Shown here piece after piece: positions 29,259 through 35,275 of a stretch of 64,000 nt of DNA. Below the pieces are notes generated by a model. The model worked only from the letters and a program-made list of their open reading frames with translations. It did no database searches and was not told the DNA's origin. The DNA comes from Limisphaerales bacterium (GTDB taxonomy: Bacteria > Verrucomicrobiota > Verrucomicrobiia > Limisphaerales > SXTU01). Location of the stretch: positions 66,913 through 130,912 of the forward strand of contig WRPG01000019.1 of NCBI GenBank assembly GCA_009773355.1, read 5' to 3'. The position numbers were made by a program, and so were the translations under genes. Position 1 is the first letter of the stretch, and every line of letters begins with the position of its first letter.

Positions 29259-30032
29259 CTACTTCAACCACTCCGCCTGCTGCGCGTCGGAAATCGTCTC
29301 CACGCCGGACGCACGCAGCACCTTCAGCGTCGCGAAGGCCAGCGTGTCCGGGCGCACGCCTCCGGTGGCGGAGTCGAACTCCGATGCCGTCATCAGCAGG
29401 CGCAGCGCGAACTGCACGGCTTGTGGCAGGGTCATCTCCGACGGACGCGGCTGGCCGTAGCGCTCCTGATAGCTGAGGACGCTGCGGATGGTCTGCGAGC
29501 CGGAGCCGCTCGTCGCGTAGCCGACGGCTTGGAACTGCGCGCCCAATGGGTCGTAGAAGAAAATCTGCGGTTTGGGCGGCTGCGATGTGGTGTCCACGCC
29601 CGCAAAGAGCGGCACGACCACGCCGACGCCTTGCATCGTCATCGGCAGGTTGTCGCGAAGCAGACGGGCGAGCGAGCGCACCTTCGCCGGGAGGCTCAAC
29701 GACTGAAGCTGGCTGCGGCGGTAATACTCGAAGGACGTTTGCAGCACGCGCGCCATCTCGAACGCCGTCGCCGGCACGCCCGCGATGGCCAGCAGCGAGT
29801 GCGCGTCCAGCTCGATGACCTTGTCCACGCGGTCGGTGACGATTACGTTGCCCGCCGTCGCGCGCCGGTCGCCCGCCATGAGCACGCCGTCCGCGAAGTG
29901 GAAGGCGAAGACGGTGGTTGCCTGCGTCTCGACCGGCGCGGCGTGCGTGGCGTCCACCCGCAGCGGCGACAGATTGTGCGTGGCGAGCAGCGAGACGAAG
30001 TCGCCGGAGATGGTATGCGCAGGAGAAGTCAT
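29259..30032 (-). CDS. prcB: 20S proteasome beta subunit
   Basis: 257 residues. A 38-residue propeptide ends at QA before TTVFAFHFADGVLMAGDRR, where Thr1 is the catalytic nucleophile. Mature numbering places Asp17 (MAGD) and Lys33 (TDRVDK) exactly as in PrcB, and SEFDSATGG carries the Asp166/Ser169 region. The protein should self-process and degrade pupylated substrates delivered by the ARC/Mpa ATPase. Pup is 33 bases upstream. No alpha subunit is near: 29151-29258 holds only a repeat and the convergent propeller gene. A GTG at 30056 could extend the propeptide by eight residues. Confidence 0.92.
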   Translation of the reverse strand: MTSPAHTISGDFVSLLATHNLSPLRVDATHAAPVETQATTVFAFHFADGVLMAGDRRATAGNVIVTDRVDKVIELDAHSLLAIAGVPATAFEMARVLQTSFEYYRRSQLQSLSLPAKVRSLARLLRDNLPMTMQGVGVVVPLFAGVDTTSQPPKPQIFFYDPLGAQFQAVGYATSGSGSQTIRSVLSYQERYGQPRPSEMTLPQAVQFALRLLMTASEFDSATGGVRPDTLAFATLKVLRASGVETISDAQQAEWLK

Positions 30033-30065
30033 TTGGATTGGAGCGCGGACGCCCACGTCCGCAGT

Positions 30066-30221
30066 TCAGGTGATTCGTGCTGCGGCGGGGTCCACCTTCT
30101 TCATGCGCTTGAGGAGTTCCTCGACGTTGGGTTTGTCCACCTTGGGCGCGCTGGGGCCGTCGCCCCCGCCGCCGCTGGGGCTGGGTGTCACCGGGCGGGT
30201 CTTTTGGGCTTGGTCGGGCAT
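30066..30221 (-). CDS. pup: Pup/UBact-like protein modifier with unusual C-terminus
   Basis: 51 residues: disordered N-terminus (PVTPSPSGGGGDGPSAPKVD), then the hydrophobic-basic core NVEELLKRMKKVDPAAAR, which closely resembles the UBact/Pup docking helix of Gram-negative Pup systems. Known Pup and UBact proteins end in Gly-Glu or Gly-Gln, the residue that is deamidated or conjugated. This one ends Arg-Ile-Thr at a TGA (30066-30068). The two other frames downstream give no Gly-Gln/Glu ending. The neighbours (PafA/Dop-like gene 4 bases upstream, prcB downstream) make the assignment firm. A GTG- or TTG-led extension to 30260 would overlap the upstream gene and is not favoured. Confidence 0.85.
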   Translation of the reverse strand: MPDQAQKTRPVTPSPSGGGGDGPSAPKVDKPNVEELLKRMKKVDPAAARIT

Positions 30222-30225
30222 AGTG

Positions 30226-31761
30226 TTACTGGCGGACAGTGGCACGGAAGAGTTGCTCACGCAATTCCGCCGGTGAGTTGGATGCCGCGATGGCTTGTGC
30301 GACGAACGCGATGCGCTCCGGCGCGAACATCTCCAGCAGCGATACCTTCAACTCGCCGTCGCCGCACGCGAGCGTGACGTGGTCCCACTGCGCGGAGAGC
30401 ACAGCGGCGCTGAACTTCTGGATAAGCTTGCCACGGATGAGCGCGCGCGTGGTCTCCGGCGGCTCGAACATCGCGCGCTGAATCTCAGCTTCCGCTGGCA
30501 CGCCGCGCATCGCGCCAGACTGCTCCAGGCCGTAGTAAAGGCCCTCGTCGAAGTCCAGCCGGTGGTATTCGAGGTCGAGGCTTTGCAGCCACGGGTCATC
30601 GTCCGCGAGGTTCTGCGCGGCCTGGAACTCGCGGAGGAGCGCGAGCTTGGCGACCCAGTCCAGCCGGTCGCGACAGCGCAGCGGGTCGGCTTCGAGGTCG
30701 TTCAACACCGCTTCCCAATCAGCCACAAGTGCTGCCCGTTCCGGCGTGGACAAGTCGCACATTTCCTTCACTACGGCGAGATACTCGCGCTGCACGGCGA
30801 GCGCGGTGGAAGGACGGCGGTTCGCCAGCTTCACCTCCCAGCGATGACGCGGGTCGCGGGAGATGGCGGGAAGTGCGGCGAGCGGGTCAGCGAGCTGTGG
30901 GAAGGCGCGCTGCGGGTCGCGGAGGATGGCTTCGAGCACGAGGGCGGTGGTGCCCACCTTCAGCCGCGTGGCGAAGGGCGAGAGGTTAGCGTCGCCGATG
31001 ATGACGTGGAAGCGCCGCCACTGGCGCGGGTCGGCATGCGGCTCGTCGCGGGTGTTGATGAGCGGGCGCTTCTGCATCGTGTCCACGCTCTGCAGCTCGC
31101 TGAAGAAGTCGCTGCGCTGGGCGATTTGGAAGTGCGGCGAGACGAACTTGTCCTCCGCCTCTATGGCGAACTTGCCCGCACCGGCGAAGATTTGCCGCGT
31201 GACGAGGAAAGCCTGCGCGCCCGCCGCCAGCCGCTCCCACGGCAGCGCGCGGGGCAGCAGGTAATTCTCGTGGCAGCCGTAACTGTGGCCGCGGAAGTCG
31301 GTGTTGTTCTTGTAGAGCCGCACCGTCGCGCCGCGCGCCTTGGAGAGACGCTGGGCGCAGGCCAGCACAACGCGTTCGCCCGCGCGGTCGTGCGCGACCA
31401 GCTCGGCGAGCGTGGAGCACTCGGGCGTGCAGTATTCGGGGTGGGCGTGGTCGTTGTAGAAGCGCGCGCCGTTGCCGAGCGCGAGGTCGCTCTTGATCTC
31501 GGCGAAGGTCAGTTCGCGGTGCGTGTCCTGCTCGAAGTAATCCGCCTCGTCGAAGTCCTGCCGCAGCTCGGGCACGTCGAAGCCCCGGTCGTCGTGGTGC
31601 GGGTTCTCGGCTTCGTAATCCCAGCGCATCCGCACGCCCGGCTCCATCGCGCTGCGCACCAGCGCGATGGACTCCGCCACCACGTCCAAGTCCTCCACGC
31701 CATCCCGCGCGATGCCGTATTCGGTCTCGATGCCGAAGAGGATGGGAGGTTCTTTAGCCAC
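30226..31761 (-). CDS. Pup ligase/deamidase family enzyme (PafA/Dop-like)
   Basis: 511 residues of the carboxylate-amine ligase fold shared by PafA and Dop. ATP/Mg motif ILFGIETEYGIA at the N-terminus, RMRWDYEAENPHHDDRGFD, NGARFYNDHAHPEYCTPEC, LYKNNTDFRGHSYGCHENYL, FLVTRQIFAGAGKF, INTRDEPHADPRQWRRFHVI, GDANLSPFATRLKVGTTALV. Some blocks look PafA-like (GIETE, ELVAHDRAGERVV, SYGCHENYL, ALAVQREYLAVV) and others Dop-like (RWDYE..RGFD, GDANLS, KVGTTALVL), with an insertion before the HAHPEY strand where Dop has its loop. It is the only family member in the locus. The start is GTG 31761 (VAKEPPILFG); the longer frame would run into the divergent DnaJ-like gene. Confidence 0.88.
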   Translation of the reverse strand: MAKEPPILFGIETEYGIARDGVEDLDVVAESIALVRSAMEPGVRMRWDYEAENPHHDDRGFDVPELRQDFDEADYFEQDTHRELTFAEIKSDLALGNGARFYNDHAHPEYCTPECSTLAELVAHDRAGERVVLACAQRLSKARGATVRLYKNNTDFRGHSYGCHENYLLPRALPWERLAAGAQAFLVTRQIFAGAGKFAIEAEDKFVSPHFQIAQRSDFFSELQSVDTMQKRPLINTRDEPHADPRQWRRFHVIIGDANLSPFATRLKVGTTALVLEAILRDPQRAFPQLADPLAALPAISRDPRHRWEVKLANRRPSTALAVQREYLAVVKEMCDLSTPERAALVADWEAVLNDLEADPLRCRDRLDWVAKLALLREFQAAQNLADDDPWLQSLDLEYHRLDFDEGLYYGLEQSGAMRGVPAEAEIQRAMFEPPETTRALIRGKLIQKFSAAVLSAQWDHVTLACGDGELKVSLLEMFAPERIAFVAQAIAASNSPAELREQLFRATVRQ

Positions 31762-31893
31762 AGATGAAACACGGATGAAACACAGACGGCACGGGGCGAA
31801 AGTGCGGCTGTGCTTGAGCGCTGTCAATCGGATGGAAATCCTGCCCAAAAATCGTCTTTGCGAGAACCATCTGAGCCGGGGTAAGGTCGCGCC
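31762..31893. promoter_or_regulatory. Divergent gap with GATGAAACACG direct repeats
   Basis: Between the PafA/Dop-like and DnaJ-like genes. It has AGATGAAACACGGATGAAAC, ACAGACGG, words that look like half of an intergenic repeat element. Promoters for both genes may lie here; I could not assign boxes. Confidence 0.4.
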
Positions 31894-32811
31894 ATGTTGG
31901 ACAACCTCCAAGAATGCTACCGACTCCTTGACGTGGAGCCGGATGCTTCTCTTGAGGAGGTGAAGCGTTCCTACCGTGAGTTGGTCAAGGTTTGGCACCC
32001 GGACCGATTCGCCAACGACCCGAGCCTCCAAGCCAAGGCGCAAGAGAAGCTGAAGCAAATCAACCTCGCCTACGAACGATTGTGCGAAGCCAAAGGTGTA
32101 GAATCGCACTCAAAACCGGCCCGTGCGGAACCACCCCAGTCTGAGGCGAAGGCAACGGCTGCGCCGTCCAGTTCAAGCGGTCCGTCAGGCTTCAGGGATG
32201 AGCCGCGGCCGTCCCAATCGGCGGGGGCACATCAGCCCTCGGTGTTCCTTCGTGTAGCTGGCGTTTTCGTTATCTTGGTATTGGCGAGAGCTGTCTGGTT
32301 CGCGAATCTCCAACAAGCGCCAACCCTTAGCCAGCCGCTAAAAGCGCACGCTCGCGAACGACTCACCATCGCAGAGATTGCTGCTGCGCATCAGGAAGTG
32401 CTCAAAGTGCAGCCCGACTTGGGAATGAATCTCCAAGAGTTCAGTCGCTACGCTCAAACGAACCAGACTGATTATGACTTCTCAGAAGGGTTTTCTCATT
32501 CCGAAGTATTGGTTGGTCCTCGCAGCGCCACGGCAGCAGATGGGAGAATGACACAATCTTCTCCCGCACTGCCAGACGAACCAAACCAATCGCTGGGCAA
32601 CACTTCGGCGAAGGGTTACTTCGACGTAGGTGCGACCAAGGATGATGTGCTGGCTATCCAGGGGAATCCAGATGGAGCCAACGAGAACACTCTCACCTAC
32701 GGGATATCCAAGGTCTTTTTCGAAAATGGGAAGGTCGTTTCCTGGAAGGCATATCCATCGTGTCCGCTCAAAGTGAAACCGCCGCTCGACTTGTCAAGGC
32801 CGCCACGATGA
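31894..32811 (+). CDS. J-domain (DnaJ-like) membrane protein
   Basis: 305 residues. The J domain occupies the N-terminal 65 residues (YRLLDVEPDASLEEVKRSYR, HPD motif in VKVWHPDRFANDP, LKQINLAYERLCEA). A low-complexity linker, one membrane helix (FLRVAGVFVILVLARAVWF) and a C-terminal domain follow that resembles small SmpA/OmlA-like folds (GYFDVGATKDDVLAIQGNPD, LTYGISKVFFENGKVVSWK). It should recruit an Hsp70 at the membrane. The gene is on the opposite strand to the proteasome genes it separates and looks lower in G+C than they do, suggesting later arrival. Confidence 0.8.
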   Translation: MLDNLQECYRLLDVEPDASLEEVKRSYRELVKVWHPDRFANDPSLQAKAQEKLKQINLAYERLCEAKGVESHSKPARAEPPQSEAKATAAPSSSSGPSGFRDEPRPSQSAGAHQPSVFLRVAGVFVILVLARAVWFANLQQAPTLSQPLKAHARERLTIAEIAAAHQEVLKVQPDLGMNLQEFSRYAQTNQTDYDFSEGFSHSEVLVGPRSATAADGRMTQSSPALPDEPNQSLGNTSAKGYFDVGATKDDVLAIQGNPDGANENTLTYGISKVFFENGKVVSWKAYPSCPLKVKPPLDLSRPPR

Positions 32812-33577: not shown

Positions 33578-35275
33578 TCAAACCACCCCGCTCCGCTCGC
33601 CCTTCCGCGTCCGAACCGGGCCGAGCTTCACCACGTTCTCCGGGTCGAAGTCGGTGAGCTTGAGCCAGTCTTCGGTCAGGTCGGTGGCGGGGAAGAGGTC
33701 GTTTTCGTCGTGTTCGAGGCGGAGGGCGGTGAGGAGGTCGGCGCGGGTGAGCTGCGTGTCGGCCCGGGTCTCGATGGCGCGGCGGATGGCGAGGGACTTC
33801 GCGCGCTCGACCACGGCGGCGATGATCGCGCCGCTGGCGAGGTCGCCGCGACAGAGCAGCTCGCGGCGGCCGCTGCGGAAGTTCACTTCGGCGAACTCGT
33901 TGTCCGGCGTGCGGGCGAAGTGCGCGTCGGTCACGGCGCGGGCGAGGTCGGCCTTCGGCTCGGCGAGCGGGAGGGAGTCGCGCAGGTAGATTTCGTAGAT
34001 GGCCTGCGCACCGGCCTGGTCGGGACGGCGGACGCGGATTTTGCGGTCAATGCGTCCGGGCCGCAGGATGGCCGGGTCAATCAGGTCCGCACGGTTCGAG
34101 GCGAGGATGACGACGACGTTGGTGAGCGGTTCGATGCCGTCCATCTCGGTGCAGAACATCGGGACGAGCGTGCTGAGAATGCTGTTGAAGCGTCCGCCGC
34201 GCCGCGTGCCGAGGATGCTCTCGGCCTCGTCAATGAACAGGAACGCCAGCGCACCGTCCTTCGCACGCTCACGGCACTGGGCGAAGAGGTCGCGCACCTG
34301 CCGCTCGCTCTCGCCGACCCACATGTTGAGAATCTCCGGGCCTTTGACGTGCAGGAAAAACTCCGGATGGTCCACGCCGGTCTGCGTCTTGATTTGCTGG
34401 CGGAGGTTGTAGGCGGTGGCCTTGCCGAGCAGCGTCTTGCCGCAGCCGGGCGGGCCGTGGAGGAGAAAGCCTTTCGGCACCGAATGCTCGAACTTCTTGA
34501 ACAGGTCGCGATGGAGAAAGGGCAGTTCAATGGCGTCGCGGATGGCGCGCACGGCCTCCTCCTGTCCGCCAATGGCCGACCACGGGAGTTCGCTGACGGT
34601 CTCCAGCGAGCGCTCGACGCGTTTGCCGACGCCGATGATTTCGAGCGCGACGCGCTGGTTCACGTCGAGGCGCACCTCCATGCCGGGCTTCATCTTCTCC
34701 TTTGCCAGCAGGGCGGAACGCTGGATGACGAAGTTCGTGATGCCGGCTTCCTGACCGATGCGCAGGCGGCCGTCGGAGAGCAGTTCGTCCACGCGGACGA
34801 TGGGGCCGTTGCGGTCGAAGCCGAGGCCCTGCACGACGGCGAAGGCTTCGTTGCAGAGCACGCGCTGGCCGGCTTGCAGGCTGGCAAGCGGGATGGCCGG
34901 GTCCACGCGGCAGACGTAATCCGTGCCGCCGAGGCAGACGTGGGCCTTGTCGCGGTCCACGCCCGCGAGGAACGTGCCGACGCGGAAGGCGGGCGAGCGG
35001 AGCTTCTCGATGATGGCGTCCATCTTCTCGAGCGCGGCGCGAGCCTGGTCGTTCATCTCCTCCACGGCGGCGATGCGCTCGCGGAGATAGACCATGTCGA
35101 AGATGGAGGCGTGGCGTGGCGGGAGCTTGCTCGTGATGAGGTCCACGAGCTGGAGGGTGGAAAGCTGTTCGAGTTCCTCGCGCGGGAGGAGGTCGGCGAG
35201 CGGGGTGGAAGTCAGCGAAGGTTCAGTGGGCGAGGGTTGCTCGCGGGGCACCGGCTTTTTCTTCGGCTCGGCCAT
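33578..35275 (-). CDS. mpa: Proteasome-associated AAA ATPase (ARC/Mpa family)
   Basis: 565 residues. N-terminal coiled coil (YLRERIAAVEEMNDQARAAL), tandem OB region (about 95-215), then the AAA domain with Walker A GPPGCGKT (274-281), Walker B ALAFLFIDEAESILG (342-356), sensor VVILASNRADL and arginine finger region ILRPGRIDRKIRV. It should form the ring that binds Pup by the coiled coil and feeds substrate into the 20S core. The C-terminus ends GERSGVV, without the penultimate Tyr (GQYL) by which Mpa opens the proteasome gate. It is separated from the rest of the locus by two opposite-strand genes. Confidence 0.92.
   Translation of the reverse strand: MAEPKKKPVPREQPSPTEPSLTSTPLADLLPREELEQLSTLQLVDLITSKLPPRHASIFDMVYLRERIAAVEEMNDQARAALEKMDAIIEKLRSPAFRVGTFLAGVDRDKAHVCLGGTDYVCRVDPAIPLASLQAGQRVLCNEAFAVVQGLGFDRNGPIVRVDELLSDGRLRIGQEAGITNFVIQRSALLAKEKMKPGMEVRLDVNQRVALEIIGVGKRVERSLETVSELPWSAIGGQEEAVRAIRDAIELPFLHRDLFKKFEHSVPKGFLLHGPPGCGKTLLGKATAYNLRQQIKTQTGVDHPEFFLHVKGPEILNMWVGESERQVRDLFAQCRERAKDGALAFLFIDEAESILGTRRGGRFNSILSTLVPMFCTEMDGIEPLTNVVVILASNRADLIDPAILRPGRIDRKIRVRRPDQAGAQAIYEIYLRDSLPLAEPKADLARAVTDAHFARTPDNEFAEVNFRSGRRELLCRGDLASGAIIAAVVERAKSLAIRRAIETRADTQLTRADLLTALRLEHDENDLFPATDLTEDWLKLTDFDPENVVKLGPVRTRKGERSGVV

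Follow-up and report, generated by a model that had tools for sequence, protein, structure and literature searches.

A UBact gene probably broken by a 58-bp deletion that runs into a REP-type palindrome

How should a Pup-like modifier whose reading frame ends in Arg-Ile-Thr be understood? Pup-type tags are joined via the side chain of their last Glu, which is first deamidated if it is encoded as Gln (PMC8599861; PMC12288473). The gene that raises the question lies in a stretch of 64,000 nucleotides from a Limisphaerales bacterium, the whole of which we call the window, and it is accompanied there by genes of the bacterial proteasome pathway:

30066..30221, minus strand: truncated UBact frame of 51 aa, with residues 1-45 normal, followed by AAARIT and a stop
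30226..31764, minus strand: Dop (depupylase/deamidase-like), intact, upstream of UBact, with GIETEYGI and the HAHPEY segment of solved Dop
29259..30032, minus strand: prcB, proteasome beta subunit, intact, downstream of UBact
33578..35275, minus strand: Mpa/ARC proteasomal ATPase, intact, 1.8 kb beyond dop

The minus-strand frame 30221-30066 translates as MPDQAQKTRPVTPSPSGGGGDGPSAPKVDKPNVEELLKRMKKVDPAAARIT followed by a stop codon, and its match to curated profiles leaves little doubt about its family. Pfam PF20513 (UBact) was matched with an E value of 2e-14 and 53.5 bits against a cut-off of 27.8 over profile positions 2-35 of 43, and NCBIfam NF033388 (UBact) with an E value of 5e-15 and 55.4 bits against a cut-off of 35 over positions 2-46 of 54. 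In both profiles, the unmatched part is the C-terminal end only. Residues 1-45 are identical to those of the UBact of a same-genus genome (G004) and include the docking-helix core ELLKRMKKVDP that the window gene has in common with UBact, the Pup-like modifier of Gram-negative bacteria. The setting is likewise that of UBact loci generally, with the gene placed between dop and prcB and with PafA, PrcA and Mpa encoded in the genome. A preliminary description of this DNA had assigned the gene to Pup/UBact and had named a Dop-like gene, prcB and mpa as its neighbors, and the profiles and the positions listed above agree with it on both counts. The difference lies at the end of the frame, which reads VDPAAARIT where VDPDQAKRYRQRTGQ is expected, so that the conserved UBact end DQAKRYRQRTG[QE] with its conjugated residue is deleted. 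The Pup of Actinobacteria follows the same pathway logic as UBact, in that a C-terminal Gln is deamidated by Dop and the Glu is ligated to lysine by PafA, but it belongs to a different sequence family; the ligated residue of that system is also absent from the window gene.

How unusual this end is was judged from a collection of UBact genes. UBact was looked for in 58 genomes, the window's own included, and in 388 genomes of the phylum, and further genes were taken from Dop neighborhoods in 80 named contigs. After identical sequences had been removed, 75 distinct UBact genes were left, with 51 ending in TGQ, 23 in TGE, and only the window's in RIT. All seven UBact genes found in the same genus (G001-G005, G007, and G010) carry the full end DQAKRYRQRTGQ, and no other truncated UBact was found among the 388 phylum genomes or the 57 relatives searched. 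A DNA pattern coding RYRQRTG[QE] had no match across the window's genome, which is 95% complete, and matched 112 fetched loci, nearly all of them from relatives. These results bear out two earlier remarks, that the frame stops after AAARIT with an abnormal C-terminus and that no other frame restores a Gly-Gln or Gly-Glu end. Judged by sequence, the window gene is a UBact by descent that is broken, and it is filed as broken rather than as a working UBact because it ends in RIT where 74 of 74 others end in TG[QE].

The form of the damage became apparent in comparison with the same-genus genome G007. Over 120 nt the alignment contains one single 58-bp gap and no other indel, and the pieces on either side of it in the window are the following:

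30085..30086, minus strand: deletion junction, ...GTGGACCCCG joined to CCGCAGCACG..., with 58 bp absent relative to G007 (best breakpoint 28/86)
30080..30085, minus strand: left-arm remnant (CCGCAG), complementary to the inner end of the right arm
30065..30079, minus strand: former palindrome loop (CACGAATCACCTGAA), now coding R-I-T plus the TGA stop at 30066-30068
30040..30064, minus strand: right arm of the palindrome, CTGCGGACGTGGGCGTCCGCGCTCC, whose repeat is matched at 69 places in the genome

The missing 58 bp comprise 38 nt of UBact coding sequence, including the stop codon, and 20 nt beyond it. The deletion starts in the Asp codon after Val-Asp-Pro (UBact codon 46) and ends inside the left arm of a palindrome. 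Gone are what remained of that codon, the eleven codons after it, the stop, a single spacer base, and 19 nt of the arm. UBact thus loses its last 12 residues, and in the window GTGGACCCCG is joined directly to CCGCAG, which is followed by the loop and the complete right arm. No clear direct repeat is common to the breakpoints, which therefore lack the classical signature of slippage. At the level of sequence, it is established that the lesion takes the form of a 58-bp deletion relative to the relatives, running into a REP-type palindrome. A single-base frameshift was rejected, as no frame codes RYRQRTG[QE] and the alignment needs only the one 58-bp gap. The preliminary description had considered that the C-terminus might be missing through a frameshift or sequencing error, for which same-lineage homologues with normal ends and a single-base indel were to be sought. 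The end is indeed missing and the seven same-genus genes do end normally; the single-base error as its cause gives way to the deletion. The palindrome had not figured in that description. We also considered that the site might have held only half a REP element from the start, with no left arm. This origin is unlikely, since the innermost 6 nt of that arm and a loop of unchanged length (15 nt) are kept and the full pair occurs in two relatives.

Those two relatives, G007 and G010, have an inverted repeat between the UBact stop and the start of prcB. In G007 it consists of GGAGCGCGGACGCCCACGTCCGCAG, a loop, and CTGCGGACGTGGGCGTCCGCGCTCC, with 25-bp arms and a 15-nt loop, and the intact palindrome folds as DNA at -39.3 kcal/mol (z -12; 0 of 200 shuffles as good). 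G002, G004, and G005 have no palindrome at this junction, yet their UBact is normal. The arm itself belongs to a dispersed family, with 69 matches in the window's genome at up to 2 mismatches (examples are loci L038, L042, L044, and L060) versus 0 for a reversed control. Two-thirds of these copies (46 of 69) are paired in inverted orientation, giving 23 pairs with a single -/+ arrangement and with their members 33-166 nt apart. A short palindromic unit present in many copies and in inverted pairs of one fixed arrangement is likewise what characterizes REP pairs and REPINs (BIME-type palindromic repeats). REP pairs and REPINs differ in having a flanking transposase, a RAYT bordered by the same repeat, and none of the three Y1_Tnp (RAYT-like) genes in the window's genome has a near-exact arm beside it. 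The AATGA on both sides of the palindrome in G007 was dropped as a candidate target-site duplication, since comparable flanks occur in G005, where the palindrome is absent, and a dop tree, having low support values, was left out of ordering the palindrome's gain. The locus varies in other ways within the genus. In G001 (L177, L014) and G003 (L187, L019), dop is on another contig than UBact-prcB, and some 0.4 kb of additional sequence lies between UBact and prcB. Elsewhere in the genus (L074, L077), dop has also ceased to adjoin UBact-prcB and leads instead into unrelated sequence with a short ORF that looks, as a guess, like the end of a transposase.

The rest of the Pup/UBact-proteasome pathway is well preserved. 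Dop, PafA, PrcA, PrcB, and Mpa are all present and open in the window's genome. The dop gene scores 441 bits with TIGR03688 and 333 bits with the PafA model, and its product carries active-site segments of solved Dop. A PafA-like gene of 489 aa is open on contig C7 and a PrcA-like gene of 258 aa on contig C109, the PrcA having a weak Pfam match (E 0.07), as it does in relatives. No frame-breaking indels were found in dop, prcB, or mpa in comparison with relatives, and dN/dS among the window's genome and its relatives is 0.03-0.14 for Dop and PrcB. In mycobacteria, the Mpa C-terminus is GQYL. The GVV end of the window's Mpa was considered as a second lesion and rejected, being ordinary for the lineage. 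Between the dop-UBact-prcB block and mpa lies a DnaJ-domain gene (31894-32811, plus strand) that is divergent from the block. One same-genus genome, G006, rated 95% complete (L179, L200, L168), encodes Dop and also shows, each close to the start of a contig, a PafA fragment and a weak PrcA-like match. No UBact or prcB was found in it, a pattern that could reflect a gap in the assembly or the loss of part of the system.

The window probably holds an ordinary UBact gene of a Verrucomicrobiota dop-UBact-prcB locus, broken by a real 58-bp deletion, and we infer that the sampled genome does carry this lesion and acquired it recently. An inverted REP pair would have stood between the UBact stop and prcB, as it does in the two close relatives, and its hairpin in single-stranded DNA may have provoked the deletion through polymerase jumping or hairpin processing. 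The window lacks one continuous stretch that begins in the Asp codon following Val-Asp-Pro and ends within the left arm, and the shortened frame runs into the palindrome loop and stops after A-A-A-R-I-T, leaving a tag that is presumably unconjugatable and a remaining pathway that is still encoded. By the known chemistry of Pup, the truncated product would offer nothing for Dop to deamidate and nothing for PafA to phosphorylate, and with the conjugated residue and the preceding RYRQRTG absent it should be neither deamidated nor ligated. Because the pathway genes are present, open, and without trace of a lesion, the tag was either lost recently or lost at the palindrome during library preparation or assembly; enzymes that are intact and under purifying selection are compatible with a very recent lesion and an artefact alike. 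The artefact would consist of a polymerase that skipped the hairpin in library amplification, or of a rare or chimeric read chosen at low coverage, with the organism keeping the 58 bp. We consider this possible, though on the unlikely side. The deletion is known from one assembly only, of 162 contigs, and the missing sequence has one end within a palindrome with 25-bp arms and a very stable fold; hairpins are difficult templates, and library preparation or assembly can go wrong at such palindromes. The intact and constrained state of the other pathway genes points the same way. However, 23 other inverted pairs of the same repeat family were assembled whole in this genome, the breakpoints are without a repeat of k-mer length that an assembler could collapse, and dop, prcB, and mpa are free of frame-breaking indels.

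An intact second UBact, with the window copy as a spare free to decay, could hide in the roughly 5% of the genome that is missing from an assembly rated 95% complete. This is very unlikely, as no genome among those searched has two UBact genes above the family cut-off and the window copy occupies the lineage's usual place between dop and prcB. Also very doubtful is a non-covalent action of the retained UBact, for instance by binding the proteasomal ATPase through its docking helix, with ligase and depupylase intact. The preliminary description had offered a different conjugation chemistry as one of its options, in which AAARIT would serve as a working end and UBact would be conjugated, or would act, in another manner. 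The unchanged N-terminal part and docking helix and the retention of Dop and PafA would suit such a scheme, but the new residues are encoded by the palindrome remnant and loop rather than by conserved sequence, no relative has an AAARIT end, and PafA and Dop chemistry works on the C-terminal Glu/Gln side chain (PMC8599861). The option is thus unsupported and, in our estimate, exceedingly improbable. Hardly credible at all is read-through of the stop to give a fusion of UBact with the PrcB propeptide. The TGA shares its reading frame with prcB, but this is expected by chance in one-third of cases, and UBact and prcB are separate genes in relatives.

What the window holds is a known gene in damaged form and not a new tagging chemistry, and with it an apparent exception to the rule that Pup and UBact end in Gly-Gln or Gly-Glu is removed. 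If the deletion is real, it would mean that the tag was lost in nature while the genes for all the enzymes were kept, in association with a repeat inserted between two genes of an operon. It would then be a modest but concrete example of damage done by a REP palindrome to the gene beside it. It would also provide a chance to ask whether a bacterial proteasome works without tagging.
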